From an uncultured Oscillibacter sp. (GTDB lineage Bacteria; Bacillota; Clostridia; Oscillospirales; Oscillospiraceae): a stretch of DNA of 11,805 nt. Below the pieces are notes generated by a model, which was given only the letters and a program-made list of their open reading frames with translations, was not told the origin of the DNA and did no database searches. The translations under genes and the position numbers were made by a program. The first letter of the stretch is position 1. Each line of letters starts with the position of its first letter. Shown here one piece after another: positions 46 to 11,805 of the stretch. The DNA is taken from assembly GCA_948435975.1 (NCBI GenBank), contig CAOJHG010000020.1, positions 1 through 11,805 on the forward strand. Reading direction: 5' to 3'.

Positions 46-2325
46 ATGAAACGCGAAAGATTCTTTTATAAAAAGTTCAAAGCCCTGGAGACGGTACTGT
101 ATTTCCGGGAATATTCCCTGTTTTTCCGCTTTTACATCCTGATTTTAACAATTATCATTGTCCTTATCGTTGCCTTTTCCATTTACATCTCCAACCTTCT
201 CAGCCGGAATGAAGCCGTCCGGACCCAGCAGATCAACGAACAGGTCGCCGCCCGAACCGTCAGCCAGATGAACAACTCCATTTACTTTTTAAATCAGATC
301 CTGTCCGTCGCAGGCACCAACCGCTATGTCATCGACGCGGCAGTCCGGCCTGGGCTCTTCTACGCGGACCGCAATCAAAACGTAGTGGCCTTTATAAAGG
401 ATATCCCCAAAAACAACGTCTTCATCAACAAAATCTGGCTCTATGAGATCACGGATAATCTGGTGTTTGTCTCGGACGGCACCGTGTCTCCCTTTGACCA
501 GTACAGCAGCGCCAATGTGCTGGACGGCATCATGCGTCAGGCCGAGGACCGTACTGAGACGGCGGTCATCGGTTCGACGGAAAAAAACCAGACGGTCATC
601 ACGCTGCTCAATGGAGAAGTCTACCTTATGTACAGCGCCCTGCGGTCCAAGGACGGGGAATTCCTCTTCAAGCTTATCGCGAAAATCAATACGCCTTACC
701 TGTTTCAGGATACCGTGAAGGAAGTGGAAAATCTGGGCTACGGCATCGAAATCACCAGCCCGTCAGACGCGCTGCTGTACTCCAACCGCAGCCACATGGA
801 AAATATTTCCGATACGGCCGAAATCGCACTGCATGACGGCTCTTTTGGCTGGACCTATTCCCTGTACCCCTTGCAGTACGCCGGAAGCGACTGGCTGTAC
901 ATCACCCGCCAGGCAATCCCATTCATCGCCGCCGCCACGTTTTTCAGCCTGCTCCTGGCCCTGCTTCTGGCGGAGAAGATGTATGCCCCGATTTCAAAAG
1001 TGACAAAGAATATCCTGAAGACGGGCGGAGAGCTGCCCCAGCCCCCGAAGCGGCATGACGAAATCGGCTTTCTCTATCAAACCTACTCCTCCATCCTCCA
1101 GGACAAGAAGCGAGCGGAATATTTGATTCAAGACATCCGTCCGGAGCTGGAGAAGCAGCTTTTCCTTCTGCTCATAAATGGAGCCGAAATGGAGGAGTCC
1201 GCCTTGGAACAGCGTCTGGCCGATATCCACAGCGAACTCCAGACGCAGGGCATCTACCAGGTCATGACACTCCATTACACCGACCTGGACGAGAGCGGAG
1301 ATGTGGCGTCCTATTTGAGCATCCGCGAAATCGAGCGGGGCGTTGAAGCCCTGTTTCCCGCAAAAGCCGGTCATATCCGCTATGTCCAAAAGGGCCATAT
1401 CGGGATCATCCTCCTGCAATACCCCGCCGGGACCCCGGCGGACACCATAGCCTCTACAGAAGCGGCGTTTGAAGACCATGTCCAGTTGCTGCTCCAGGCC
1501 CAAGGTGTCCGGGTCCTGCTTGCCTGGGGCAATCCCCACGTGGCGCTGCGGAACATGCCCCTGTCCTGCCAGGAGGCGTATGACCGTCTGAAACGCCAGA
1601 TTTACCTGCAAAGCGACGGCGAGTCCTCCTGCGACGACGCTCCCGTCCCGGACGACATCACACAGGAATATTTCGCCAAGAAAATCGACCACTTGAAATC
1701 CCTCATGAACAGCAGCGACATCGCCTCCGCCGAGGCCTATCTCCATCAGCTCTTACAAGAGTTCCGGGGAACGGACCTGGCCCTGGCCCAGCAAAAACAA
1801 GCCTACGGGCGTCTGCTGGACACGCTCATCGAAAAATCCCTCCAGTTCCACGCCGGTTCCTGCTGCTCCACGGAGGACTATCAAGAGATGTACCGCTCGC
1901 TGGAGCTGAGCGCCGGTCAGGTCCAGCTGGCGCAGCGCATGGAACCCAACGTCGTCCGGATCTTCGGCTTTGTCCGGACACAGCTCCTGCGCAGGCAGAA
2001 CCGCATTGTGGAAAAGGCGAAGGAATACATCAGTGAAAATTATGACAACGGAGACCTGTCTGCGCAGATGATCGCGGACAGTATCGGCATCACCCCCTCC
2101 TATCTCTCCAACCTGTTCACGACGCAGACCGGCGAAAGCCTGGTGGCTTATCTCAACGAGTACCGGGTCCAGATCGCGATCCATCTCTTGCAGAGTACCT
2201 CCATCAGCATCAAGGAGATCGGATTCCGGACGGGGTTCAACACCTCCCAGAATTTTAACCGGGTATTCAAGCGGGTAACCGGGAAAACTCCCGGCAAGTA
2301 CCGGGAGAAGCGTTCGGAGCCGTAA
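46..2325 (+). CDS. Membrane-anchored AraC-family transcriptional regulator with extracytoplasmic sensor region
   Basis: A 759-residue protein predicted to sense a ligand outside the cell and bind DNA inside it. Residues 1-28 are basic and cytoplasmic. A first membrane helix lies at about 29-52 (ILILTIIIVLIVAFSIYI). An extracytoplasmic region spans about 53-290, and a second helix lies at about 291-311 (IPFIAAATFFSLLLALLLA). A long cytoplasmic linker leads to a C-terminal AraC/XylS double helix-turn-helix from residue 654 to about 755. That domain shows typical features: MIADSIGITPSYLSNLF, then IKEIGFRTGFNTSQNFNRVF, ending in KTPGKYR. This layout is known from YesN-like AraC regulators in Firmicutes, which often sit beside sugar-uptake operons. 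There is no receiver domain, so no histidine kinase is implied. GGAGG at 37-41 precedes the ATG by four bases. It lies directly upstream of, and codirectional with, the TRAP/glycyl-radical operon and is probably its local activator (inference). The ligand is not readable from sequence. Confidence 0.93.
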   Translation: MKRERFFYKKFKALETVLYFREYSLFFRFYILILTIIIVLIVAFSIYISNLLSRNEAVRTQQINEQVAARTVSQMNNSIYFLNQILSVAGTNRYVIDAAVRPGLFYADRNQNVVAFIKDIPKNNVFINKIWLYEITDNLVFVSDGTVSPFDQYSSANVLDGIMRQAEDRTETAVIGSTEKNQTVITLLNGEVYLMYSALRSKDGEFLFKLIAKINTPYLFQDTVKEVENLGYGIEITSPSDALLYSNRSHMENISDTAEIALHDGSFGWTYSLYPLQYAGSDWLYITRQAIPFIAAATFFSLLLALLLAEKMYAPISKVTKNILKTGGELPQPPKRHDEIGFLYQTYSSILQDKKRAEYLIQDIRPELEKQLFLLLINGAEMEESALEQRLADIHSELQTQGIYQVMTLHYTDLDESGDVASYLSIREIERGVEALFPAKAGHIRYVQKGHIGIILLQYPAGTPADTIASTEAAFEDHVQLLLQAQGVRVLLAWGNPHVALRNMPLSCQEAYDRLKRQIYLQSDGESSCDDAPVPDDITQEYFAKKIDHLKSLMNSSDIASAEAYLHQLLQEFRGTDLALAQQKQAYGRLLDTLIEKSLQFHAGSCCSTEDYQEMYRSLELSAGQVQLAQRMEPNVVRIFGFVRTQLLRRQNRIVEKAKEYISENYDNGDLSAQMIADSIGITPSYLSNLFTTQTGESLVAYLNEYRVQIAIHLLQSTSISIKEIGFRTGFNTSQNFNRVFKRVTGKTPGKYREKRSEP

Positions 2326-2362
2326 TGCGCCTGCGCGCCCTGGCGGACGCGGCGGCAGAAAG

Positions 2363-2404
2363 AAAGCGGCCTTTTGGAATGCTGCATTCCAAAGGGCCGT
2401 TTTT
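2363..2404 (+). terminator. Rho-independent terminator of the AraC regulator gene
   Basis: The arms at 2367-2381 (CGGCCTTTTGGAATG) and 2385-2399 (CATTCCAAAGGGCCG) pair over 15 bp with one G-U wobble around the three-base loop CTG. Five T residues follow at 2400-2404. The A residues just before the stem can pair with the T tract. It lies 40 bases after the regulator stop codon, so the regulator and the downstream operon are probably separate transcription units. Confidence 0.92.
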
Positions 2405-2560: not shown

Positions 2561-3565
2561 ATGAAGCAAGAGATTGGCTGGGGCATGATTGGCTGCGGAG
2601 ACGTAACAGAACAGAAGAATGGGCCGGGCTTAGACCGCGCTGAGGGCTCAAGGCTCGTCGGGATCGCCAACCGGACGCGCTCCAAAGCAGAGGACTGGGT
2701 CCGCCGGCATGGCGCCGGACGGGTCTATGACTCGGTGGAGGCCCTTCTGGCCGAGCCTGCTATCGACATCGTATATGTGGCGACAACGCCGGACTGCCAC
2801 AAAAAATATGCCGTTGCCTGCGCCGAAGCCGGAAAGCATTGTTACCTGGAAAAGCCGGTGGCCCTCTCTTATGCAGAGGCAGAGGAGATCCAGGCCGCCT
2901 TCCGGAAAAGCGGCACGAAAATTTTTGTGGCCCATTACCGCCGGGGAATGACCCGCTACAAGGAAATCAAAAAGCTCCTGGAGAGCGGCGTCATCGGAAC
3001 GGTCCGGGGGATGCAGATCCTCCGCACGCAGAAGCAAACCGCGGAGGAACGCCTTCCGGACGCGGAAAAGCCCTGGCGGGTCCGGGCCGGTGTGTCGGGC
3101 GGCAGCCACTTCTTTGAGGGAGACATCCACATGCTGGACCTGGCGGACTATCTGATAGGCCCAGCGGCGGATTATAAGCTGGAGGCATCCAATGAAACCG
3201 GCTTTTACCAAGGCGCGGACGTCGTGTCCCTCTCAGCGTACACGGAGTCGGGCGTAATGCTCTCCGGCTTGTGGTGCTACGCGGCTTACCGGGAGCTGGA
3301 CCAGGTCCTGATTTTCGGAGACGGGGGCAGTATTTCGTTCCAGTACGGTCAGAATGACGGCCCGGTCAAAGTCGAAACCGAAGAGGGCGTTCGGGAGCTT
3401 CGGCCCTTCGTACACGAGAATATCGGAACGGAACAAATCCAGGATATCGTAAATGAGCTGCTGGGGAAGGGCCATTGTTCCAGCACGCTGGTTTCCGCCA
3501 TGCGGTCTTTGCGGATCGCGGAGGCGGCAGAGCGGCAGCGAAAAACCGGCCAGGACCTTGGATGA
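2561..3565 (+). CDS. Gfo/Idh/MocA family NAD(P)-dependent oxidoreductase
   Basis: A 334-residue cytoplasmic protein of normal length for the glucose-fructose oxidoreductase/inositol dehydrogenase/MocA family. The N-terminal Rossmann fold begins with GMIGCGDV (residues 8-15), the dinucleotide-binding glycine turn. The family motif EKP is at 97-99, where Lys98 is expected to take part in catalysis. The C-terminal sheet domain carries GGSHFFEGDIHMLDL, with His190 and Asp193 matching the usual substrate-site His and Asp. Members oxidise or reduce a hydroxyl/keto group of sugars, cyclitols or their acids; the substrate here cannot be told from sequence. AAGGAGG at 2547-2553, seven bases before the ATG, supports the start. 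It is the first gene of the operon, 47 bases ahead of the glycyl radical enzyme, so it probably acts just before or after the radical step (inference). It is not called IolG because the rest of the inositol pathway is missing. Confidence 0.92.
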   Translation: MKQEIGWGMIGCGDVTEQKNGPGLDRAEGSRLVGIANRTRSKAEDWVRRHGAGRVYDSVEALLAEPAIDIVYVATTPDCHKKYAVACAEAGKHCYLEKPVALSYAEAEEIQAAFRKSGTKIFVAHYRRGMTRYKEIKKLLESGVIGTVRGMQILRTQKQTAEERLPDAEKPWRVRAGVSGGSHFFEGDIHMLDLADYLIGPAADYKLEASNETGFYQGADVVSLSAYTESGVMLSGLWCYAAYRELDQVLIFGDGGSISFQYGQNDGPVKVETEEGVRELRPFVHENIGTEQIQDIVNELLGKGHCSSTLVSAMRSLRIAEAAERQRKTGQDLG

Positions 3566-3612
3566 CGCACATCAATTGGAAGACAGCAAGGAAAAAGAAT
3601 GGGGGCTTGTCT

Positions 3613-5961
3613 ATGAAGGAACGAGTAAGAGAACTGCGGACAAAAAATCTCATGCAGACGCCCGAGATCTGCGTGGAACGAGCACAAATCGTAACGGCGG
3701 CTTATGAGGAATACAAAAACCTGCCCGCCGTCCTGCTTCGGGCGAAGACCTTTGAGAAGCTTATGAACGAAATGACGATCTGGATTGCCGAAAACGAGCT
3801 GATCGTCGGCAATCAGGCAGAAGTTGCCAAAGGAGCGCCTGTGTTTCCGGAGTATTCCGTGGACTGGGTCCTGCGGGAGCTGGACGAATTTGAGGAGCGC
3901 ACCTCCAGCCGCTTCCGCCTGACGGAGGAAAACAGGGCGGTCCTGCGGGACCTTTTGCCCGCCTGGACGGGCCGCACCACAAAGGACCGGGCCCTGTCCA
4001 TCATCCCGCAGGAGGCCAAGGACGCCATGGACTGTCAGGCATTCCTCCTCTCCCCCCTTTCCAGCGGCCTGGGGCACATCGCCGTCAATTATCAAAAGCT
4101 GCTGGACTTCGGCCTGGAGGAGATCATGAACGAGATCCAGGAGCGGCGGTCCCACTGCACCCCGCTCCGGGCAGGAGATTTGGAACGGAAAGTGTTTTAC
4201 GACGCCTGCCTGATTGTGTGCGGCGCCATGATTGCATTTGCCGAGCGGTTCGCGGCGCTGGCGGAGGAGCAGGCCAAAACCGCGGAGGCAGCCCGGCAGT
4301 CGGAGCTCCTCGAAATCGCCCGGGTCTGCCGCAAGGTCCCCCGCAGGCGGGCGGACAGCTTCCAGGAGGCTCTGCAAAGCTTCTGGTTCCTGCATCTGTG
4401 CCTGCAAATCGACTCCAACGGACACAGCATGTCTCCCGGCCGCTTCGACCAGTATACCTGGCGCTGCTACCAGCATGACATGGACGCGGGGGTCTCTCCG
4501 GAATACGAGGAGGAGCTTCTGGGCTGCCTGTGGATCAAATTCTCTGAAATCAGCAAGCTGCGGGATTACATGGGTTCCCTGGCCTTCGGCGGATACCCCA
4601 TGTTCCAGAATCTGATTGTCGGCGGTCAGGATGTTCACGGGAACGACGCCACTAACGACGTGTCCCTGCTGTGCTGCAAGGTGACTTCCGAGCTGAAGCT
4701 GGCCCAGCCCTCCCTCTCCGTGCGCTGGCACAAAAACAGCCCGGTGTATCTGAAACGGGCGGCGGCGGAAGTGGCCCGGTCCGGCATCGGGATGCCCGCC
4801 TATTTCAATGACGAGTCCATCATCCCCGTCCTGCGCAACATCGGCTGCTCTTTGGAGGAGGCCCGGGATTACTGCGAAGTGGGCTGTGTGGAGCCCCATG
4901 TGGCGGGCAGGATGGAAGGCATGTATTCCTCCGGCTTCACCAATCTCTGCAAGATCCTGGAAGTCACGATTTTCAACGGCGAAGACCCCGTGACGGGGAA
5001 GACCATCGGCCTCCCCTCTGGGGACCGCTTTGAGGACTATCACGACTTCTACAACGCCTATCGCCGCCAGCAGCGGTATTTTATGGACCTGCATGTCCAG
5101 TGTGTCAGCGCGGTGGAGCTGGCCCATTCCACACTGTGCCCTACGCCCCTGGTGTCCTGCTTTGTGGACGACTGCATCGAGCGGGGCCTGGATGTGCGCT
5201 GCGGCGGCGCCCACTACAACTACACTTCCCCGAACGCGGTCGGTCTGGCAAACCTGAGCGACTCTCTCCTGGTGATGAAAAAGAAGATCTTTGGCGAGAA
5301 AAAATACACCTACGAGGACCTTCGCCGGATGCTCCGCGCCAATTACGAGGGATATGAGCCGGTGCGGCTGGAATTCCTCAATGGCGTTCCCAAATACGGA
5401 AACGACGACGATGAAGCCGACGAAATGGCCAGGATCTGCGGCGAAGATTACTGCAAGGATTTTAAGCGCTATCCCGGCTGGCGGGGGTCCTCCTATCAGC
5501 CCGGACTCCAGAGCATTTCGGCCCATGCCCTTTTTGTCGGCAGTCTGGGGGCTACGCCCGACGGGCGGACAAAGGAAATGCTGGTATCCGACGGCGGCGT
5601 CTCCCCGGCCCAGGGCCGGGACGTGAACGGTCCCACGGCGGAGATGCTTTCTGTGGCGAAGCTCAACCATCTGGAGGCCACCAACGGTGCATTGCTGAAT
5701 GTAAAATTTCATCCTGCGGCAGTCCGGGGCGAAATGGGGATGCAGAACCTGATCGCCCTGACGGACGCGTTCTTCCGCCTGGGGGCCCAGCATGTCCAGT
5801 ATAACGTGATGGACAGCGAGACCCTGCGGGACGCGCAGGAGCATCCGGAACGCCATGGCGACCTGATTGTCCGGGTGGCAGGCTTCAGCGTGTTGTTCAC
5901 CACCTTGGATGTGGTCCTGCAAAACGACATCATCGAGCGGACACAGCACGATTGCTGCTGA
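3613..5961 (+). CDS. Glycyl radical enzyme, dehydratase/lyase type (substrate unknown)
   Basis: A 782-residue member of the pyruvate formate-lyase-like glycyl radical superfamily. The radical glycine is Gly757 in RVAGFSVLF, 26 residues from the C-terminus as is usual. The thiyl cysteine and catalytic base are Cys425 and Glu427 in GCVEP, the signature of the dehydratase, choline-lyase and sulfolyase branches. A single Cys, not the Cys-Cys pair of pyruvate formate-lyase, rules out that activity. His155 (GLGHIAVNY) and His271-Ser272 (SNGHS) match substrate-site residues of glycerol dehydratase as I recall them. The position of that enzyme's substrate-binding Asp447 appears to be Ser439, so the substrate is probably not glycerol or propanediol. 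The start at 3613 is preferred because MKERVRELR is a typical family N-terminus; only a weak GGGGG (3601-3605) precedes it. An in-frame ATG at 3562 would add 17 residues. The protein ends in an unusual Asp-Cys-Cys after RTQH. The activase gene follows seven bases later. Confidence 0.93.
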   Translation: MKERVRELRTKNLMQTPEICVERAQIVTAAYEEYKNLPAVLLRAKTFEKLMNEMTIWIAENELIVGNQAEVAKGAPVFPEYSVDWVLRELDEFEERTSSRFRLTEENRAVLRDLLPAWTGRTTKDRALSIIPQEAKDAMDCQAFLLSPLSSGLGHIAVNYQKLLDFGLEEIMNEIQERRSHCTPLRAGDLERKVFYDACLIVCGAMIAFAERFAALAEEQAKTAEAARQSELLEIARVCRKVPRRRADSFQEALQSFWFLHLCLQIDSNGHSMSPGRFDQYTWRCYQHDMDAGVSPEYEEELLGCLWIKFSEISKLRDYMGSLAFGGYPMFQNLIVGGQDVHGNDATNDVSLLCCKVTSELKLAQPSLSVRWHKNSPVYLKRAAAEVARSGIGMPAYFNDESIIPVLRNIGCSLEEARDYCEVGCVEPHVAGRMEGMYSSGFTNLCKILEVTIFNGEDPVTGKTIGLPSGDRFEDYHDFYNAYRRQQRYFMDLHVQCVSAVELAHSTLCPTPLVSCFVDDCIERGLDVRCGGAHYNYTSPNAVGLANLSDSLLVMKKKIFGEKKYTYEDLRRMLRANYEGYEPVRLEFLNGVPKYGNDDDEADEMARICGEDYCKDFKRYPGWRGSSYQPGLQSISAHALFVGSLGATPDGRTKEMLVSDGGVSPAQGRDVNGPTAEMLSVAKLNHLEATNGALLNVKFHPAAVRGEMGMQNLIALTDAFFRLGAQHVQYNVMDSETLRDAQEHPERHGDLIVRVAGFSVLFTTLDVVLQNDIIERTQHDCC

Positions 5962-5968
5962 CAAGCCT

Positions 5969-6877
5969 ATGGATACAAAAAAGGGGATCTTGTTTGACAT
6001 CCAGCGGTTTTCCGTACACGACGGGACCGGGATCCGGACCAATGTGTTTTTCAAGGGCTGCCCGCTGCGCTGCGACTGGTGCAGCAACCCGGAATCCCAG
6101 GACCTCCGTCCGCAGCCGCTGTACGACGCAAAAAAGTGTATCGGCTGCGGAGGCTGTGTGCAGCGCTGCCCGTCGGGGGCCATTTCGACGGAAAACGGTT
6201 ATTCCATCGATACGCAAAAATGCTTTGCCTGTGCGGAGCTTCCCTGCGCGGCGGGCTGTTACGCCTCCGCCCTGACCATTGCGGGCCAGTCCTATACTGT
6301 GGAAGACATCATCCGGATCGTGAAGCGGGACGCGGTGTTTGACGGCGCTTCCAGCGGCGGCGTCACCATCTCCGGCGGCGAGGCCATGGTCCAGATCGAT
6401 TTCCTGGAAGCCCTGTTGAAAGCCTGCAAGGAGCAGGAGATCGATACCGCTATCGAAACATGCAGCGCCTGCGGCTGGGACAGCATCCGCCGGACCCTGC
6501 CCTATACGGACACCTATCTTTGCGATGTGAAGCACACGGACCCGGAAAAGCTCTGGCGGGAGACCGGCGGCCGTGCGGAGCATCTGCTGGAAAATATCCG
6601 CCGCCTGGCGGAAAACGGTGCGTACATCGTCGCCAGAGCCCCCCAGATTCCCGGCTTTAACACAGAGGACCGGGAAAGTGAGGACATCGGCCGCTTTCTC
6701 GTAAGCTGCGGCATCCAGCGGGTGGAAGTCCTGAATTTCCACAAGCTGGGGGTTCCGAAGTATACCAAGTGCTTTCTGGGGCGGACACCCAAGGACCGGG
6801 AGCCTTTGGAGCCGGAGGCCCTGGAACGGAAACTGGAAATTTTCCGCGGACTTGGCTTAGTGGCCGAAATCGGCTGA
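5969..6877 (+). CDS. Radical SAM glycyl-radical-enzyme activating protein
   Basis: A 302-residue protein that uses S-adenosylmethionine and a [4Fe-4S] cluster to place the radical on Gly757 of the preceding enzyme. The radical SAM motif CPLRCDWC supplies Cys31, Cys35 and Cys38. A ferredoxin-like insert carries two more four-cysteine sets, Cys57/60/63/67 and Cys85/88/93/97, as in activases of the dehydratase and decarboxylase branches; the pyruvate formate-lyase activase lacks them. SAM-binding features include ISGGEAM (GGE at 136-138). The start at 5969 gives MDTKKGILFDIQRFSVHDG, a typical N-terminus. No clear ribosome-binding site precedes it and the gap to the upstream stop is seven bases, so translation is probably coupled to that of the enzyme. 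Complete and undamaged. Confidence 0.95.
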   Translation: MDTKKGILFDIQRFSVHDGTGIRTNVFFKGCPLRCDWCSNPESQDLRPQPLYDAKKCIGCGGCVQRCPSGAISTENGYSIDTQKCFACAELPCAAGCYASALTIAGQSYTVEDIIRIVKRDAVFDGASSGGVTISGGEAMVQIDFLEALLKACKEQEIDTAIETCSACGWDSIRRTLPYTDTYLCDVKHTDPEKLWRETGGRAEHLLENIRRLAENGAYIVARAPQIPGFNTEDRESEDIGRFLVSCGIQRVEVLNFHKLGVPKYTKCFLGRTPKDREPLEPEALERKLEIFRGLGLVAEIG

Positions 6878-6888
6878 TCTCGAAATCC

Positions 6889-6906
6889 ATCGGATGCCCA
6901 TCCGAT
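6889..6906. repeat. Short perfect inverted repeat between activase and TRAP binding-protein genes
   Basis: ATCGGAT (6889-6895) and ATCCGAT (6900-6906) form a perfect 7-bp stem around the four-base loop GCCC, 12 bases after the activase stop. No T tract follows, so it is not a typical terminator. It could be an mRNA processing or stability hairpin or a small protein-binding site; the sequence does not decide. Confidence 0.6.
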
Positions 6907-6925
6907 CGATAATTAAGGAATGTAT

Positions 6926-6930
6926 GGAGG
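6926..6930 (+). promoter_or_regulatory. Ribosome-binding site fixing the start of the TRAP binding protein
   Basis: GGAGG ends seven bases before the ATG at 6938. An in-frame ATG at 6920 lies upstream of this site, so 6938 is the start. It also gives a clean lipoprotein signal peptide beginning MKKYLSLLL. Confidence 0.88.
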
Positions 6931-6937
6931 AATTGAA

Positions 6938-7993
6938 ATGAAAAAGTATCTCTCTTTGCTCCTGGCGCTCAGCATGGCGCTGACGCTCGCCGCCTGCGGC
7001 GGCTCCGGAAGCTCCGGAAGCAGCACCGGCGGCTTGGACGCTTCTGGCAGCGGCACCAGCGGCTCCGGCGATGGAAGCGCGGCACCTGCCGTCACGCTGA
7101 AATTCGCCTGCGACGACACTACCACCTCTTCTTATTACCTGGCCCTGGAGGAGTTTGAGAAGGAAGTGGAAGAGAAGTCCGGCGGCACGATTGCCGTAGA
7201 CCTGTACGGGGACGCTGCCCTGGGCAGCGCTACGGATACCATCGAGGGCATGAATCTGGGTACCATCGAGTGCGTTTTCGCATCCACCGCCGCCATCTCC
7301 GCCTTCGTCCCTGAATTCTATTATGTAGACGCGCCGTTCATCTTCCGCAACGCCGAACACGCGCATGCGGTCGTAGACGGTGAGGTCGGCGAAATCATCG
7401 CCCAGGCCAGCATGGACGGCCAGGGCATCCGTATCCTTGGCTGGTACGACACCGGCTTTCGCAACATCTACTCCACAAAGGCCGTCCGCAGCATCGACGA
7501 GCTCAAGGGCCTGAAGATCCGGACCATGGAGTCTGACCTTCACACGGCGACCTTCGAGTCTCTGGGCTGTATGCCCACCCCCATGTCCTCCTCGGAGGTC
7601 TACACTTCCCTCTCTCAGGGCACCATCGACGCGGCGGAAAACTGCTACTCTTATGTAGTCAATCAATCCATGTATGAGGTCTGCCCCTATATCATCAACA
7701 CCGGTCATTTCTATGGTTTCTGCGTCATCATGATTGCCGAGAAGGTCTTCCAGTCCCTGACGCCTGAGCAGCAGGAAATCGTTACCACTGCTGCCGCCAA
7801 CAGCGTGACCTATCAGAGAGACCTGATCGATCAGCAGAACACGGAAGCTGCGGACTTCCTGGCGGAAAAAGGCATTGAGTTCATTGACCTGGACCGGGAT
7901 GCTTTGAAGGAGACGGCTCAGAGCGTCTATACCAACTACGCCGACCGGCTGGATTCCGAGATCATGGAGAAAATCGAGAATACACAGGGTTAA
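6938..7993 (+). CDS. dctP: TRAP transporter substrate-binding lipoprotein (DctP family)
   Basis: A 351-residue extracytoplasmic solute receptor that captures a carboxylate-bearing substrate and delivers it to the TRAP membrane subunits. Residues 1-19 form a signal peptide ending in the lipobox LAAC, with Cys20 the predicted lipidated residue. Residues 21 to about 46 are a Gly/Ser-rich tether, as is common in Gram-positive bacteria. The mature part has the DctP pattern. LKGLKIRTMES contains Arg195, the conserved residue that usually pairs with the ligand carboxylate. It is followed by MPTPMSSSEVYTSLSQGTIDAAEN, the family signature (quoted here as two joined parts, MPTPMSSSEV and YTSLSQGTIDAAEN). 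The ligand is therefore probably an organic acid such as a sugar acid, but a sulfonate or other anion cannot be excluded. Hairpins lie on both sides of the gene, the 3' one large enough to raise its mRNA level above that of the membrane subunits (inference). Confidence 0.93.
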   Translation: MKKYLSLLLALSMALTLAACGGSGSSGSSTGGLDASGSGTSGSGDGSAAPAVTLKFACDDTTTSSYYLALEEFEKEVEEKSGGTIAVDLYGDAALGSATDTIEGMNLGTIECVFASTAAISAFVPEFYYVDAPFIFRNAEHAHAVVDGEVGEIIAQASMDGQGIRILGWYDTGFRNIYSTKAVRSIDELKGLKIRTMESDLHTATFESLGCMPTPMSSSEVYTSLSQGTIDAAENCYSYVVNQSMYEVCPYIINTGHFYGFCVIMIAEKVFQSLTPEQQEIVTTAAANSVTYQRDLIDQQNTEAADFLAEKGIEFIDLDRDALKETAQSVYTNYADRLDSEIMEKIENTQG

Positions 7994-8013
7994 CGGACCA
8001 AAGGAACCCAAAG

Positions 8014-8055
8014 AGGATACTGTGCATCTGCCAAACAGCAGATACACAGTATCCT
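8014..8055 (+). promoter_or_regulatory. Large intercistronic hairpin between dctP and dctQ
   Basis: AGGATACTGTG (8014-8024) pairs perfectly with CACAGTATCCT (8045-8055). After one C/A mismatch, ATCTGC (8026-8031) pairs with GCAGAT (8038-8043) around the loop CAAACA. This gives 17 pairs with one mismatch. It is followed by ATATCCAATAAG, not a T tract, so full termination is unlikely. Such hairpins after binding-protein genes can protect the upstream mRNA from 3' decay or allow partial termination, giving more receptor than membrane subunits (established for some transport operons; inferred here). Confidence 0.8.
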
Positions 8056-8083
8056 ATATCCAATAAGAGCCAAGGAGGGAGCT

Positions 8084-8593
8084 ATGAAAAAACTTTTGAA
8101 AACCCTGGCTGATTTTGAATCCTATGTTTGTGTGTTTTGTTTTGTGGTGATGGCATGTGGATGCTTCTTTCAGGTACTGAACCGCAATATCTTTCAGATC
8201 CCTATCAGCTGGACGGAAGAACTCTCCCGCTTCGCCATGGTCTGGATGGCGCTGCTGGGGTCTGAGATTGGCCTGCGGCAGCATAAGCAGATGAGCGTGG
8301 ACGCTGTCGTAAACCGTCTCCCCTTCCTTCCCAGGAAGCTGGTGGAATGCCTGGGCTGTCTCATCAACGCGGCTTTCGCCGGTATTTCCGCCGTTTACGC
8401 GGTCCAGTTCGTCGCCATTACTTATCAGAGCAATCAAATCTCCAGCGCGATGAACTGGCCTATGTGGATCGTATATTTAATCCTGCCGCTGAGTCTGTTT
8501 TTGATGTGCGCCTTTGAGATCTGGGAATTTACATACCTCCTGCTGAAGCGCCCCGGCCCCCAGCAGGACGCCGAAGAGAAAGGAGGAGACTGA
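8084..8593 (+). CDS. dctQ: TRAP transporter small membrane subunit (DctQ family)
   Basis: A 169-residue integral membrane protein. Four hydrophobic segments are visible at about residues 12-34, 46-63, 88-108 and 126-148, the usual DctQ topology. Between the first two is FQIPISWTEELSRFAMVWMALLG, here split as FQIPISWTEE and LSRFAMVWMALLG, the family's best-conserved stretch. It is followed by GLRQHKQMSVD, in which the R-x-x-x-x-M/V-x-V-D pattern is typical. The subunit pairs with DctM and forms part of the scaffold for sodium-driven uptake. AAGGAGG at 8072-8078 precedes the ATG by five bases. The stop is one base before the dctM start, so the two are translationally coupled. The charged tail (EEKGGD) is cytoplasmic. 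Confidence 0.93.
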   Translation: MKKLLKTLADFESYVCVFCFVVMACGCFFQVLNRNIFQIPISWTEELSRFAMVWMALLGSEIGLRQHKQMSVDAVVNRLPFLPRKLVECLGCLINAAFAGISAVYAVQFVAITYQSNQISSAMNWPMWIVYLILPLSLFLMCAFEIWEFTYLLLKRPGPQQDAEEKGGD

Positions 8594-8594
8594 T

Positions 8595-9872
8595 ATGTCC
8601 ACAAGTACTTTGGCGCTGCTGCTGTTCGGTCTTTTCGCGGTGTTGCTGATATGCAAGGTCCCTGTATCCTTCTGTCTGGGGATTGCCAGCACGGTTTGTC
8701 TGTTGATTCTGGGTTATCCGCTGACCGTCGTCGGACAGAAAATTTTTAACGCGCTGAACTCCTTTTCCATTATGGCAATTCCACTGTTCATCCTGGGCGG
8801 AAACATCATGTCAGAAGGCGGCATTTCCAAACGTCTGATCGAGTTCTGTGAATCGCTGGTAGGCAATATCCGGGGCGGTCTTGCGATCGTGGTCATCCTG
8901 GCCTGCGCCTTTTTTGCCGCGCTGTCCGGCTCCGGCCCCGCCACGGTCGTCGCTATCGGCAGTATGATGTATCCTGAGATGGTCCGGCGGGGCTATCCCA
9001 AGCATCAGGTGGCAGGATTGGTATCCGTCGCCGGGGGCCTGGGGCCCATCATCCCGCCCAGCATCATCATGGTGGTCTACTGCACCATGACCCAGACAAA
9101 CATCGCCAGCCTCTTTTCCTCCGGTTTTGTCGTGGGCGGGCTGCTGATCCTTGCGATGTGTGTCGTGACCTTTATACTGTCCAGAAAGCATCAATGGCCG
9201 GTGGCGGAGGAAAAATTTTCTATCAAACGGGCCGCTGTCTCCTTCCGCCATTCCATCCTTGCCCTGCTGATGCCGGTGATCGTCCTGGGCGGCATTTACT
9301 CCGGGCTGTTCACCGCTACCGAGGCCGGGGCCGTGTCGGTATTCTATTCCCTGGCGGTGGCGCTGTTCGTCTACCGGACGCTGTCCTGGAAGGACTTGAT
9401 CCCCATTTTCAAGACTTCCGCCGTCTCCTGTTCTGTGATCCTGTTCATTATGGGCACCTCCACGGTGTTCTCCTGGCTGTTCACCGTCAGCGGCATTTCG
9501 GGCTGGATCGTCAGTACAGTGACCAATGCTGGTCTTGGTTATTATCCTATCCTGATTCTCATTACCCTGATCCTGCTGGTGTTTGGCTTCTTCCTGGAGG
9601 GGATCGCCACCGTGACCATGCTGATCCCTCTCTTCCTGCCGGTAACGGCTGCCGTGGGCATCGACCCCCTGCATTTGGGCATGATCGTCACGATGACCAA
9701 TGTTATGGGCTGCATGACGCCGCCGGTGGCAAACAACATCTTTGCATGCAGCACCTTTACCGGACTGCCGATGGGCGAAATCAGCAAGGGCGAACTGCCT
9801 TATCTGGGGTGCTTCTTCTTTGTGCTGCTGGTCGTGGTGTTTTGTCCGCAGTTAATCACGTTCTTTGCGTAA
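8595..9872 (+). CDS. dctM: TRAP transporter large membrane subunit (DctM family)
   Basis: A 425-residue, strongly hydrophobic protein of normal length for the ion-coupled translocating subunit of TRAP transporters. Family landmarks are intact: SGSGPATVVAIGS (Ser111-Gly-Ser-Gly-Pro-Ala-Thr), GGLGPIIPPS (147-156), both in the regions known to form the sodium and substrate sites, and YSGLFTATEAGAV with TEAG at 242-245. A second inverted-half signature appears near the end as MTPPVANNIF. These support a working Na+-coupled symporter. Together with the binding protein and DctQ it forms a complete three-gene TRAP system. A ribosome-binding site (AAAGGAGG) lies inside the end of dctQ. Hydrophobic runs continue to the C-terminus (FFFVLLVVVFCPQLITFFA) with no truncation. 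Confidence 0.96.
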   Translation: MSTSTLALLLFGLFAVLLICKVPVSFCLGIASTVCLLILGYPLTVVGQKIFNALNSFSIMAIPLFILGGNIMSEGGISKRLIEFCESLVGNIRGGLAIVVILACAFFAALSGSGPATVVAIGSMMYPEMVRRGYPKHQVAGLVSVAGGLGPIIPPSIIMVVYCTMTQTNIASLFSSGFVVGGLLILAMCVVTFILSRKHQWPVAEEKFSIKRAAVSFRHSILALLMPVIVLGGIYSGLFTATEAGAVSVFYSLAVALFVYRTLSWKDLIPIFKTSAVSCSVILFIMGTSTVFSWLFTVSGISGWIVSTVTNAGLGYYPILILITLILLVFGFFLEGIATVTMLIPLFLPVTAAVGIDPLHLGMIVTMTNVMGCMTPPVANNIFACSTFTGLPMGEISKGELPYLGCFFFVLLVVVFCPQLITFFA

Positions 9873-9973
9873 TCCCCCATTTATTTATGGGTCAGACCCG
9901 GCGTTGCGCCTCTGTGCTTCTGTGATTCACGCAACAATAAGCGGACAGCCGCAAAATGCCGGATGGGCCAGAG

Positions 9974-9978
9974 AGGAG
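9974..9978 (+). promoter_or_regulatory. Ribosome-binding site fixing the start of the IolB-like gene
   Basis: AGGAG ends nine bases before the ATG at 9988. The reading frame stays open upstream to the end of dctM, but no better start with a binding site occurs there, and the family N-terminus fits the ATG. The 115-base gap after dctM otherwise holds only weak inverted repeats (GTTGCG 9903-9908 with CGCAAC 9930-9935; GCGG/CCGC at 9941-9952). Confidence 0.75.
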
Positions 9979-9987
9979 ATACGACCT

Positions 9988-10767
9988 ATGGAGGAAAAAC
10001 TGTTTGGCTATACCCAGTATGATGAGCACGGCGAGGCCGTCCTGTGTACTTATGAAAATGCGTATCGCGCTATGATGATGGATGTCCGCACGTACCACAT
10101 GAAGCCCGGAGAGAAGCGCAGCTTCTGCCGCTTTGGCGAGGAGTCCGCCGTACTGCTGCTGCGCGGGAAGGCAGTGTTTGCCTGGGACGGCGGACAGGAA
10201 CAGGTGCGCCGGAAGGACGTCTTTACCGACGGGCCTTTCGTCCTGCATGTCTGCGGCGGGAAGGCGGTGTCTGTGCAGGCGGAGGCGGAAACGGAGCTTC
10301 TTGTGGCCTGTACAAAAAACGATACGGCCTTTGCCCCAAAGCTCTACTGCCCAGAAGATGCGCCCTATCGGGCATTTGCAAAGGACAAATTCGGCGGTAC
10401 GGCAAACCGGCGTGTGAACACGATCTTTGACAAGGAAATCGCACCCTGGTCGAATATGGTGCTAGGCGAAACTCTGAACGACCTTGGAAACTGGTCCTCC
10501 TACCTTCCACACCGGCATCCACAGCCGGAGCTCTACTACTTCCGCTTTGACCATCCGGACGGATTCGGGGCCAGCTTTGTGGGTGACGATGTTTTCAAAA
10601 GCGTCGACGGCAGTTTTGCCGCCATCCCCGGGGGACGGGTCCATCCACAATCCGCCGCGCCAGGCTTTCAGATGTACACCTGCTGGCTGATCCGGCATCT
10701 GGACGGCGACCCATGGCTGCAATCCACCCGATTTGAAGACGAGCGTTTCCTATGGCTGAATGACTGA
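9988..10767 (+). CDS. KduI/IolB-family sugar-acid isomerase (5-deoxy-glucuronate isomerase-like)
   Basis: A 259-residue double-cupin protein. The C-terminal half carries the IolB pattern GNWSSYLPHRHPQPELYYFR, followed by DHPDGFGASFVGDD and then GGRVHP. Predicted metal ligands are His175, His177, Glu181 and His219, matching the His-x-His...Glu...His set of the family. IolB converts 5-deoxy-glucuronate to its 2-keto form in inositol breakdown. KduI does the same kind of aldose-ketose isomerisation on 5-keto-4-deoxyuronate. The GNWSSY motif favours IolB over KduI. The loop between the second His and Glu is short compared with Bacillus IolB as I recall it. No other inositol gene is nearby, so it probably acts on a related deoxy-uronate made by this operon (inference). 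It is the last gene of the unit, and it ends 191 bases before the terminator. Confidence 0.85.
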   Translation: MEEKLFGYTQYDEHGEAVLCTYENAYRAMMMDVRTYHMKPGEKRSFCRFGEESAVLLLRGKAVFAWDGGQEQVRRKDVFTDGPFVLHVCGGKAVSVQAEAETELLVACTKNDTAFAPKLYCPEDAPYRAFAKDKFGGTANRRVNTIFDKEIAPWSNMVLGETLNDLGNWSSYLPHRHPQPELYYFRFDHPDGFGASFVGDDVFKSVDGSFAAIPGGRVHPQSAAPGFQMYTCWLIRHLDGDPWLQSTRFEDERFLWLND

Positions 10768-10958
10768 ACGCAGATTGCAACGCAGTAAAATTATGGTATT
10801 TTTAGGAAAAATCTCTGTGTGGCAATTAGTGTTTCTGCGGACTATTCGAAAGTACAGGGTAAGTAGGGTCACGGTCAAGCATATTTATAATGGAGTGGGA
10901 ATTTCGTTTTAGGACTTCTTTGATGATGGCTCTTTCAAAACACAGAAATAGTTCAAAG
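10768..10958. other. AT-rich intergenic stretch after the operon
   Basis: No gene could be supported here. A 39-codon frame (10793-10912) has no ribosome-binding site and no recognised motif. ATTTTT/AAAAAT (10798-10812) is a weak A/T hairpin. TTCTTTGA (10916-10923) is an exact inverted copy of TCAAAGAA (10953-10960), which touches the left arm of the following terminator. Confidence 0.6.
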
Positions 10959-10998
10959 AAAAAGGCTAGTGAGAGTTCCGCTCCCACTAGCCTTTTTT
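10959..10998. terminator. Probable bidirectional terminator between convergent genes
   Basis: AAAAAGGCTAGTG (10959-10971) pairs with CACTAGCCTTTTT (10985-10997), a 13-bp perfect stem with a further GAG/CTC pairing inside the 13-base loop. Six T residues end the plus-strand side. A residues on the left arm supply a T tract for the minus strand. It lies between the plus-strand operon and the 3' end of the minus-strand leucine-rich-repeat gene, so it can end both. Confidence 0.93.
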
Positions 10999-11060: not shown

Positions 11061-11639
11061 CTACAGCGCCTGGAAACGGAGCTTCCTCTCCGCAGCGTAT
11101 TTCATGGCCGCAGAGCCATCTGGAGCACAAAGAATGAGCTTAGGGCAGTCTTCAAAAGCATCGGCGGCAATCTCTTCAATGCTGGCCGGGAAGACGATCC
11201 GCTCCAGCCCCATGCAGCCGGAGAAAGCCTGACAGCCAATCACCGTCACACCCTCCGGAATAGTAATACTGGTTATACCCGCACAGCCCTTAAAGGCCCG
11301 GCCGCCGATCTTCGTCACGCCCTCCGAGATGGTGACGCTAGTCAAGCTCGTATAGACGACGGGATCTTCCCCGGCAGTCTCTGTGTGCTGTTTGTCCATA
11401 GCCGCCTCTTTTTCAGGCAGGCCCGGCTCCCGCAGGCCGGGACAGTCCCGAAAAACCGACCGGTCAAGCTCCACGCTCTCTGGGACCGTCGCCCTGGTCA
11501 ATCCCGCACAGCCGACAAACGCGCACTCTCCAATTTTTGTCACGCCCTCCGGGATGGTCACGCCGGTCAGCCCTGTACATCCATAAAAGGCCCTGCTGCC
11601 GATTTTCGTCACACTCTCCGGGAGGGTGACGCTGGTCAA
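11061..11639 (-). CDS. BspA-like leucine-rich-repeat (LRR_5) protein, probably 5'-truncated
   Basis: A minus-strand frame built from about seven units of the 23-residue BspA/TpLRR pattern L-T-S-V-T-I-P-E-G-V-T-K-I-G-x-x-A-F-x-G-C-x-G. Clear units are followed by two decayed ones in the middle (VELDRSVFRDCPG and a stretch near EKEAAMDKQH), then three more and a short cap. Such proteins are usually surface proteins for binding or adhesion. Here there is no signal peptide, and the only in-frame start is a TTG at 11639 inside a repeat. Repeat coding continues upstream of it (GSGAFYGC, to about 11668), and the frame stays open further without resembling the family. The gene is probably missing its 5' end through recombination, or is a remnant. 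The stop is TAG at 11061-11063. The function is unknown. Confidence 0.7.
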   Translation of the reverse strand: MTSVTLPESVTKIGSRAFYGCTGLTGVTIPEGVTKIGECAFVGCAGLTRATVPESVELDRSVFRDCPGLREPGLPEKEAAMDKQHTETAGEDPVVYTSLTSVTISEGVTKIGGRAFKGCAGITSITIPEGVTVIGCQAFSGCMGLERIVFPASIEEIAADAFEDCPKLILCAPDGSAAMKYAAERKLRFQAL

Positions 11640-11669
11640 GCCCCTGCATCCATAAAAAGCCCCGCTGCC
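11532..11669 (-). repeat. Two adjacent 69-bp direct repeats inside the leucine-rich-repeat gene
   Basis: Units 11532-11600 and 11601-11669 share most bases; for example GTCAC(G/A)C(C/T)CTCCGGGA recurs exactly 69 bases apart. Sixty-nine bases equal one 23-residue protein repeat. A similar block occurs at 11307-11350 but out of the 69-base register, because of changed-length units between. Confidence 0.8.
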
Positions 11670-11693
11670 GTAGAACCGCCCCAGGAGCGGTAT

Positions 11694-11805
11694 GTGGCCG
11701 TGAACACCAGCTTTGCCCCGCTGGGCGAGTACCTTTCCCAGCAGACGGAAAACAGCGTTACCCTCTCTTTCGCAGACGTTGAGCGGGTGATCGGAAAGCC
11801 CCTCT
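11694..11805 (+). CDS. 5' part of a small hypothetical protein, cut by the window end
   Basis: A plus-strand frame running off the window, of which about 37 codons are visible. It starts at GTG 11694, with AGGAG (11683-11687) six bases before it; GTG 11700 is an alternative. It reads MAVNTSFAPLGEYLSQQTEN followed by SVTLSFADVERVIGKPL. The pattern of a hydrophobic start, L-x-x-Y-L, V-T-L-S-F and D-V-E-x-V-I-G-x-P-L resembles small bacterial domains of unknown function (of the DUF7662 kind, from memory) that continue with a Trp-Trp motif, which lies outside the window. The frame has no stop upstream for a long way into the leucine-rich-repeat gene, but that part is the reverse of repeat coding and is not taken as real. 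No function is assigned. Confidence 0.55.
   Translation, partial: MAVNTSFAPLGEYLSQQTENSVTLSFADVERVIGKPL

Follow-up and report, generated by a model that had tools for sequence, protein, structure and literature searches.

An Oscillibacter operon encoding a predicted radical sugar-acid dehydratase and a possible glycyl radical route for hexuronates

Which substrate is processed by an operon that combines a glycyl radical enzyme (GRE) with its activase, a tripartite ATP-independent periplasmic (TRAP) transporter, a Gfo/Idh/MocA oxidoreductase, and an IolB isomerase? New GREs have repeatedly revealed distinct anaerobic routes in the gut. The operon lies on a contig of an uncultured Oscillibacter species (GenBank assembly GCA_948435975.1, contig CAOJHG010000020.1). 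The window analyzed in the present study was this entire contig of 11,805 bases, and genes outside it were, therefore, out of view. The source genome (G000) comprises 2.26 Mb in 376 contigs and is 61% complete. We tentatively propose that the operon takes up a hexuronate and dehydrates it by radical chemistry en route to 2-keto-3-deoxygluconate (KDG), although we give the full scheme a less than even chance.

The operon consists of seven intact, codirectional genes on the plus strand (2561–10767), as the preliminary description had claimed. Coordinates and reading frames agreed with that account, and the family assignments were upheld by Pfam and NCBIfam profile searches. The first gene encodes the Gfo/Idh/MocA oxidoreductase (334 aa, 2561–3565; PF01408, 1.9e-25), which is the predicted pathway reductase. 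It is followed by the GRE, a predicted sugar-acid dehydratase (782 aa, 3613–5961; PF02901, 7.7e-203; PF01228, 1.9e-31), and a radical-SAM GRE activase with a ferredoxin-type domain (302 aa, 5969–6877; TIGR02494, 301 bits with a cut-off of 174.35; PF04055 and PF00037). The TRAP solute-binding protein DctP (357 aa, 6920–7993; PF03480, 2.5e-77), the small permease DctQ (169 aa, 8084–8593; PF04290, 2.9e-28), and the large permease DctM (425 aa, 8595–9872; TIGR00786, 376.8 bits with a cut-off of 268.45) come next. The last gene encodes IolB of the 5-deoxy-glucuronate isomerase family, a predicted deoxy-uronate isomerase (259 aa, 9988–10767; PF04962, 1.8e-42). The intergenic spacings are 47, 7, 42, 90, 1, and 115 nt in operon order, and the sole stop codon of each frame is the terminal one. 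GGAG is present ahead of five of the eight starts when the upstream AraC gene is counted. The isomerase most likely starts at the ATG at 9988 and not at the upstream TTG of the frame (9865), because AGAGGAG precedes the ATG and close relatives have approximately the same protein length. A database entry for DctP (P0241) begins six codons further downstream than the start given here. By its gene families, the combination fits no classical pathway, and no microcompartment shell genes were present among the Pfam families of the window; both points had already been made in the preliminary description and stand.

The protein encoded at 3613–5961 has the features of the GRE superfamily, namely, PFL-like and glycine-radical domains, the conserved Cys and Gly, and an adjoining activase. 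Its catalytic residues are Cys425 and Glu427 (codons from 4885) and Gly757 (codon 5881). The sole NCBIfam match above the cut-off was TIGR01774, a broad subfamily. Scores for the NCBIfam equivalogs HypD, CutC, HpsG/HpfG, the indoleacetate and hydroxyphenylacetate decarboxylases, and the PRK09983 type were all below their cut-offs (best, 603.2 of 1109 required). The nearest solved proteins were the glycerol and propanediol dehydratases (1r9d and 5i2g; 684 and 678 bits). A midpoint-rooted FastTree phylogeny was constructed from 115 sequences, comprising the listed database matches of at least 760 aa less one fusion, the GREs of the loci, and four PDB sequences. The window GRE fell into a group of 89 of the 115 sequences, apart from the four solved GREs (support 0.818; some inner nodes were weak), and its own subgroup of 14 had a support of 1.0. 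The comparison with characterized families that the preliminary description had proposed thus revealed no grouping with any of those compared by NCBIfam cut-offs, PDB matches, or the tree.

In glycerol dehydratase numbering, the GRE keeps H164, H281, S282, C433, E435, and G763, and carries the substitutions D447S, Y640Q, S642I, and N645H; N156 is also replaced. The roles assigned to these active-site positions are in part our assumption. All 18 tabulated rows of the clade have Q, I, and H at 640, 642, and 645, and position 447 is S, T, N, or P, never Asp. In five rows of the diol-dehydratase type, the same sites are D, Y, S/V, and N. The role of the Glu in the CXE motif and the GRE eliminase class are described in passages of PMC7077986. 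Since the catalytic-site residues are retained, the machinery for elimination appears to be present. We infer from these residues that the GRE may be a dehydratase acting on a different substrate from that of glycerol dehydratase. The wider claim, that it is a sugar-acid dehydratase, is probably correct. Glycerol/propanediol dehydratase itself was ruled out by D447S, Y640Q, and the grouping apart from the solved diol dehydratases. We rate the GRE as a new subfamily and the operon as new, while the whole is a variant of known GRE eliminase systems rather than a new kind of system.

Gene order, the recurrence of which in other genomes the preliminary description had treated as decisive, is kept in two further members of the genus, the GREs of which are 76–89% identical to that of the window. 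G254 keeps the order Gfo-GRE-activase-DctP-DctQ-DctM (73, 76, 64, 76, 71, and 86% identity), and its AraC gene, 29% identical, has the opposite orientation to the operon. L001, a locus of an Oscillibacter metagenome-assembled genome (MAG) with the same contig positions as the match G720:C19, keeps GRE-activase-DctPQM-IolB (89, 80, 82, 84, 92, and 80%); its contig begins 199 bases ahead of the GRE gene. The operon is rare and patchy in distribution. Three of 86 genomes of the genus, including that of the window, carry the GRE at E<=1e-220. In a draw from the family, 12 of 300 genomes had a GRE match at E<=1e-150, with more than 41% identity only in the window and G254, and draws from the class (1/391) and order (1/394) each returned the window itself. 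A scan of the phylum gave 15 matches in 398 genomes at E<=1e-180 including the window (best other match, 46%, G1142), and several of the loci read had different neighbors (aquaporin-like, shell-like, and other kinases). A wider contig scan with the GRE yielded one close relative, the remaining 19 loci being GREs at 25–32%. In the phylum of L011, an Anaerolinea MAG, one of 221 genomes matched, and the three GREs of this genome are outside the clade by their Cys-loop motifs. The GRE matched 47 plasmid records, all at less than 60% identity.

Relatives in protein databases were taken from the best 120 matches listed. Counting the window's own, nine of the 20 nearest full-length GRE clusters have a longest contig of exactly the same size as that of a DctP cluster (68392, 22679, 6099, 43764, 9541, 17366, 20345, 8892, and 5866). 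These matching sizes are an indirect sign of linkage, down to a GRE identity of 61–64%. L057, the sole member of the wider clade with a readable neighborhood, has TRAP genes beside the GRE.

Variant GREs were also noted. At 3930–6314 of L057, a distant GRE with adjoining DctM and DctP genes has Cys-Val-Gln replacing Cys-Val-Glu in the catalytic loop. The genome of the window contains two more GRE genes around one activase (L036, G000:C141, 1192–6156, minus strand), which are 36–37% identical to the window's GRE, one being truncated by the contig end. Twenty-two of the 120 listed matches are fusions of the GRE with DctM that lack the glycyl radical domain (P0018, P0019, P0021–P0033, P0036–P0039, P0081, P0095, and P0099). 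Five shortened forms that were compared are approximately 95–99% identical to intact P0006 over the retained parts and show several different deletions; P0035 is not a fusion, keeps the radical domain, and is missing an internal stretch. It is as if a gut species had repeatedly lost this operon through in-frame deletion.

We then consider what the isomerase indicates about the substrate. By sequence comparison, this protein is IolB at the level of orthologue identity. It is 46–67% identical to the IolB of eight iol loci and retains 57 of the 58 columns that do not vary among 12 IolB relatives (L095 and 11 from iol loci; three of the 12 are N-terminally trimmed), the sole change, in the window and L001, being Q107 to A. 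It also retains the HPQPE and HPQ motifs, which presumably have a metal role. When 65 genomes were sampled from another family within the class, nine had a match, and eight of the nine genes are located among iol genes; KduI proper was dropped on this ground. Named relatives at 65–70%, among the matches listed, are called 5-deoxy-glucuronate isomerase, including those of Lachnospiraceae, Erysipelotrichaceae, and Blautia. The score for TIGR04378 was 79.9 bits with a cut-off of 205. Since the IolB of the iol locus L092 scores similarly low (94.5), this result does not tell against IolB; IolC, IolD, IolE, and IolG from L091, L092, and L094 were all above their cut-offs. The family given in the preliminary description was, therefore, correct, while its term "IolB-like" was too weak, and a relative has an RpiB-family protein in this slot. 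The phylum draw for IolB returned only the window (1/119), and a phmmer search of the PDB with the isomerase gave no match at 1e-3.

The known inositol pathway does not appear to be what this IolB serves. The iol loci of the genus (G155, G210, and G767) hold a different IolB, 41–43% identical to the operon copy, and the latter was, therefore, likely acquired from outside them. No IolD or IolC was detected at E<=1e-15 in G000 (61% complete). G254 and G720 gave only distant IolD-type matches (24–26%), leaving true IolD in no carrier, in contrast to matches of 52–53% in G155, G210, and G767. At the same threshold, G254 has no IolC and G720 two weak matches (28%). As far as these incomplete genomes show, IolB does not serve the known inositol pathway in the carriers, and a plain inositol operon was ruled out because true IolD and strong IolC were not found in any of the three at that threshold. 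In G210 and G155, the iol loci (L117 and L118, respectively) have IolD, IolE, and IolB, and no IolC was found in these genomes at E<=1e-15; the deoxy-ketogluconate step may use another kinase there.

In the position after dctM, the window and L001 have IolB, and G254 has an open reading frame (ORF) of the RpiB/LacA/LacB family (170 aa, 14753–15265 of L035). In an alignment, this RpiB-like ORF retains the Cys of the CGTG motif but differs at three other positions: the His after SD and the first tail Arg are both replaced by Phe, and the His before the ND motif is replaced by Leu. We take the changed positions to be the usual phosphate and ring-opening residues; their loss would thus fit a linear, unphosphorylated substrate. 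According to passages of PMC12838403, 4-deoxy-5-ketouronate (DHU) has two nonhomologous isomerases, KduI from the KduI/IolB family and DhuI from the RpiB/LacA/LacB family. Mainly because these two families swap in one operon slot, we place a DHU-like aldehyde after the GRE, and a deoxy-uronate aldehyde is the likely substrate of the isomerase step.

DctP, DctQ, and DctM are all above Pfam cut-offs, and DctP and DctM also in NCBIfam. DctP has two nearly invariant arginines, R175 and R195, and arginines like these bind the substrate carboxylate in TRAP receptors (passages of PMC11668362). Its model had a predicted local distance difference test score (pLDDT) of 92.5, with structure matches that include TRAP sugar-acid receptors among others. 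Solved relatives include 7BBR, 4N8Y, and 4X8R, the ligands of which are given as KDG, galacturonate, and glucuronate, respectively, in the same portions of PMC11668362. The arginines and the sugar-acid-binding relatives fit a carboxylate substrate for DctP.

The Gfo protein scored below all NCBIfam equivalog cut-offs listed (IolG, 94 vs 355 bits). It keeps the EKP lysine and the motif histidine, and Glu replaces the Asp of IolG four residues before that His; we assume the roles of these Gfo/IolG motif residues. No reductase of the short-chain dehydrogenase/reductase (SDR) family for 3-deoxy-2,5-hexodiulosonate (DK-II) was found beside the isomerase; the operon has the Gfo/Idh/MocA protein instead. 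In our view, the latter more likely acts last, as a reductase, than by oxidation in the first step, the order suggested in the preliminary description. In G720, a KDG-kinase-like gene adjoins a 2-keto-3-deoxy-6-phosphogluconate aldolase gene.

From these points, we infer the following substrate, regiochemistry, and order of steps. A hexuronate, for example galacturonate or glucuronate, would enter through DctPQM. After the activase has installed the glycyl radical, the Cys425 thiyl would abstract the hydrogen at C5, the carbon adjacent to the carboxylate, and loss of the C4 hydroxyl would give DHU. Hydrogen abstraction beside the carboxylate with loss of the neighboring hydroxyl would thus turn a hexuronate into the kind of compound on which both isomerase families act. 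The aldehyde end would then be isomerized by IolB (in the relative, by the RpiB-like protein) to give DK-II, Gfo would reduce the C5 ketone of DK-II to KDG, and a kinase and an aldolase encoded elsewhere in the genome would use KDG. In this proposal, which we regard as possible rather than probable, the GRE is a hexuronate dehydratase that makes DHU directly from free uronic acids, and the isomerase was recruited from the inositol pathway (IolB) or the RpiB family, depending on the species. The net step has a precedent, since the direct dehydration of galacturonate to 5-keto-4-deoxygalacturonate is described in passages of PMC6353982, which cite a thesis on the enolase superfamily.

Several observations weigh against this scheme. 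The GRE was found in only three of the 86 genomes of the genus, and no isomerase or Gfo was seen on the 6.8-kb contig of L057. The true substrate of IolB is 5-deoxy-glucuronate, not DHU, and the near-complete conservation of IolB argues for an unchanged substrate. L095, an IolB relative at 58%, is located outside any iol locus. With 139.7 bits, the RpiB-like ORF passes the RpiB subfamily cut-off (135), and it scores only 23.1 with PRK09273, a family of 211-aa proteins to which DhuI presumably belongs; it is not a clear DhuI and may not be one. We know of no Gfo/Idh/MocA reductase for DK-II. KDG genes were seen in G720 only, and G254 has no IolC/KdgK-type kinase at E<=1e-15, though the KDG-kinase-like gene of G720 barely passed this threshold (1.4e-16). 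By sequence profile, the closest solved relatives of DctP are 4pdh, 4nq8, 4p9k, and 4pdd, which we take to hold erythronate or pantoate. Ligands of this type are named for IseP homologues, without entry codes, in passages of PMC11668362. The profile ranking, therefore, allows for a smaller acid.

This ranking underlies the view that another anion is imported, such as a C4–C5 sugar acid, a cyclitol acid, or a sulfonate, with the GRE as its dehydratase or lyase and the isomerase acting on the deoxy product. The presumed erythronate and pantoate binders and the ninth place of the isethionate binder 8t9t speak for it; however, the identity of IolB points to a six-carbon deoxy-uronate, and sulfonate-processing families were not found in the operon with Pfam and NCBIfam. 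We consider this view somewhat doubtful. Under a further rival, the IolB and RpiB-like genes would be unrelated hitchhikers, and the Gfo-GRE-activase-TRAP set would turn a small diol acid into a plain aldehyde or ketone. The isomerase gene does lie 115 nt 3' of dctM and differs among genomes, and, beyond the window's own, no listed IolB cluster (120 of 1014 matches listed) matches the contig size of the 20 closest full-length GRE clusters. However, two species have IolB after DctM (with close spacing in L001), and the ORF that replaces it in G254 is likewise from an aldose-ketose isomerase family. We consider hitchhiking very unlikely.

Two other arrangements keep the hexuronate and change the chemistry. 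The steps might follow the order of the Ashwell pathway, in which case the isomerase would first convert the hexuronate to a ketouronate, Gfo would reduce this to an aldonate, and the GRE would dehydrate the aldonate to KDG, the operon enzymes replacing UxaC, UxaB/UxuB, and UxaA/UxuA. The chemistry of the GRE at the carboxylate end would be the same as in the scheme via DHU. However, a hexuronate would need ring opening, and in G254 the RpiB-like isomerase has no His at the position that aligns with the presumed ring-opening residue; furthermore, the known substrates of IolB and DhuI are deoxy-uronates. We regard this order as unlikely, even though the operon provides each of the three types of activity that make up the isomerase pathway (passages of PMC6353982) and KduI, an E. 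coli protein of the Pfam family to which IolB belongs, facilitates the breakdown of galacturonate and glucuronate (PMC3578941). It is also conceivable, but quite unlikely, that the GRE removes the C5 hydroxyl of the hexuronate, Gfo reduces the C4 ketone, and IolB catalyzes its usual reaction on 5-deoxy-glucuronate, bypassing IolG, IolE, and IolD. The orthologue-level identity of the isomerase and its 57 of 58 invariant columns favor this route. On the other hand, the product of IolB needs IolC and IolJ in the known pathway, strong IolC was found in none of the three carriers, and the GRE would form a beta-keto acid, which is prone to decarboxylation by general chemistry. The absence of IolC is itself weak evidence, since G155 and G210, with true IolD, also lack IolC at that cut-off. 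Literature linking GREs with uronates, DHU, or IolB in the sense of the DHU scheme was not found among the matches listed in a literature search that did not extend to subscription papers and preprints; uronate is not mentioned in passages of PMC11574389.

Other features of the window concern its regulation and flanks. A 759-aa AraC-family regulator of the membrane-anchored type is encoded upstream (46–2325, plus strand; HTH_18, 7.4e-22; helix-turn-helix at residues 676–754), with two hydrophobic segments as judged by eye from the translation. This regulator had been recognized in the preliminary description. We add that it is probably a separate transcription unit from the operon, because an intrinsic-terminator-like hairpin follows it (2362–2404, plus strand; 20 bp stem, -29.2 kcal/mol, z -6.73, U tract). 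A hairpin between dctP and dctQ (8014–8055, plus strand; -27.0 kcal/mol, z -8.19) is possibly an mRNA-stability element favoring DctP. A terminator-like hairpin is present 3' of the operon (10958–10998), inside a 71-nt fold (-25.5 kcal/mol, z -5.82, U tract). On the minus strand, a gene for a BspA-type leucine-rich-repeat protein (11061–11804) runs past the contig end. An Rfam scan at the gathering threshold and a tRNA scan of the window were both empty.

If the proposal is true, gut anaerobes can enter uronate catabolism by radical chemistry. Pectin, mucus glycans, and drug glucuronides are rich in uronic acids, for which a radical sugar-acid dehydratase would add one more solution to the isomerase route and the dehydratases of the enolase superfamily. 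Such an enzyme would also suggest a function for a large GRE clade, the members of which are, among the matches listed, often labeled formate C-acetyltransferase in databases.

Comparisons with known systems place the operon among several pathways. The GRE glycerol/propanediol dehydratases (1r9d and 5i2g) are like the window GRE in Cys-x-Glu, the Gly radical, the equivalents of H164, H281, and S282, and the activase; they differ in D447, Y640, S642, N645, and N156, all replaced in the window GRE, and the operon has a TRAP transporter and an isomerase and no microcompartment genes. The myo-inositol iol operon (IolG, E, D, B, C, and J) has in common IolB (46–67%) and a dehydrogenase of the Gfo/Idh/MocA superfamily, whereas the window operon lacks IolE, IolD, and IolC and its Gfo is far below the IolG cut-off. 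The Ashwell isomerase pathway (UxaC, UxaB/UxuB, and UxaA/UxuA) likewise leads to KDG with an isomerase, an oxidoreductase, and a dehydratase, but none of the three window proteins matched a Uxa/Uxu family in Pfam or NCBIfam. Enolase-superfamily D-galacturonate dehydratases catalyze the same net reaction as that proposed here (passages of PMC6353982), whereas the window GRE belongs to an unrelated family and would use radical chemistry. The KduI-KduD/DhuI-DhuD pathway for DHU from pectin and glycosaminoglycans shares an interchangeable isomerase of the KduI/IolB or RpiB family, an oxidoreductase, and KDG as the likely exit. The window operon differs from it in lacking an SDR reductase, a lyase, and an unsaturated-uronyl hydrolase, and in having IolB, not KduI, as its isomerase; the source of DHU here would be a GRE.

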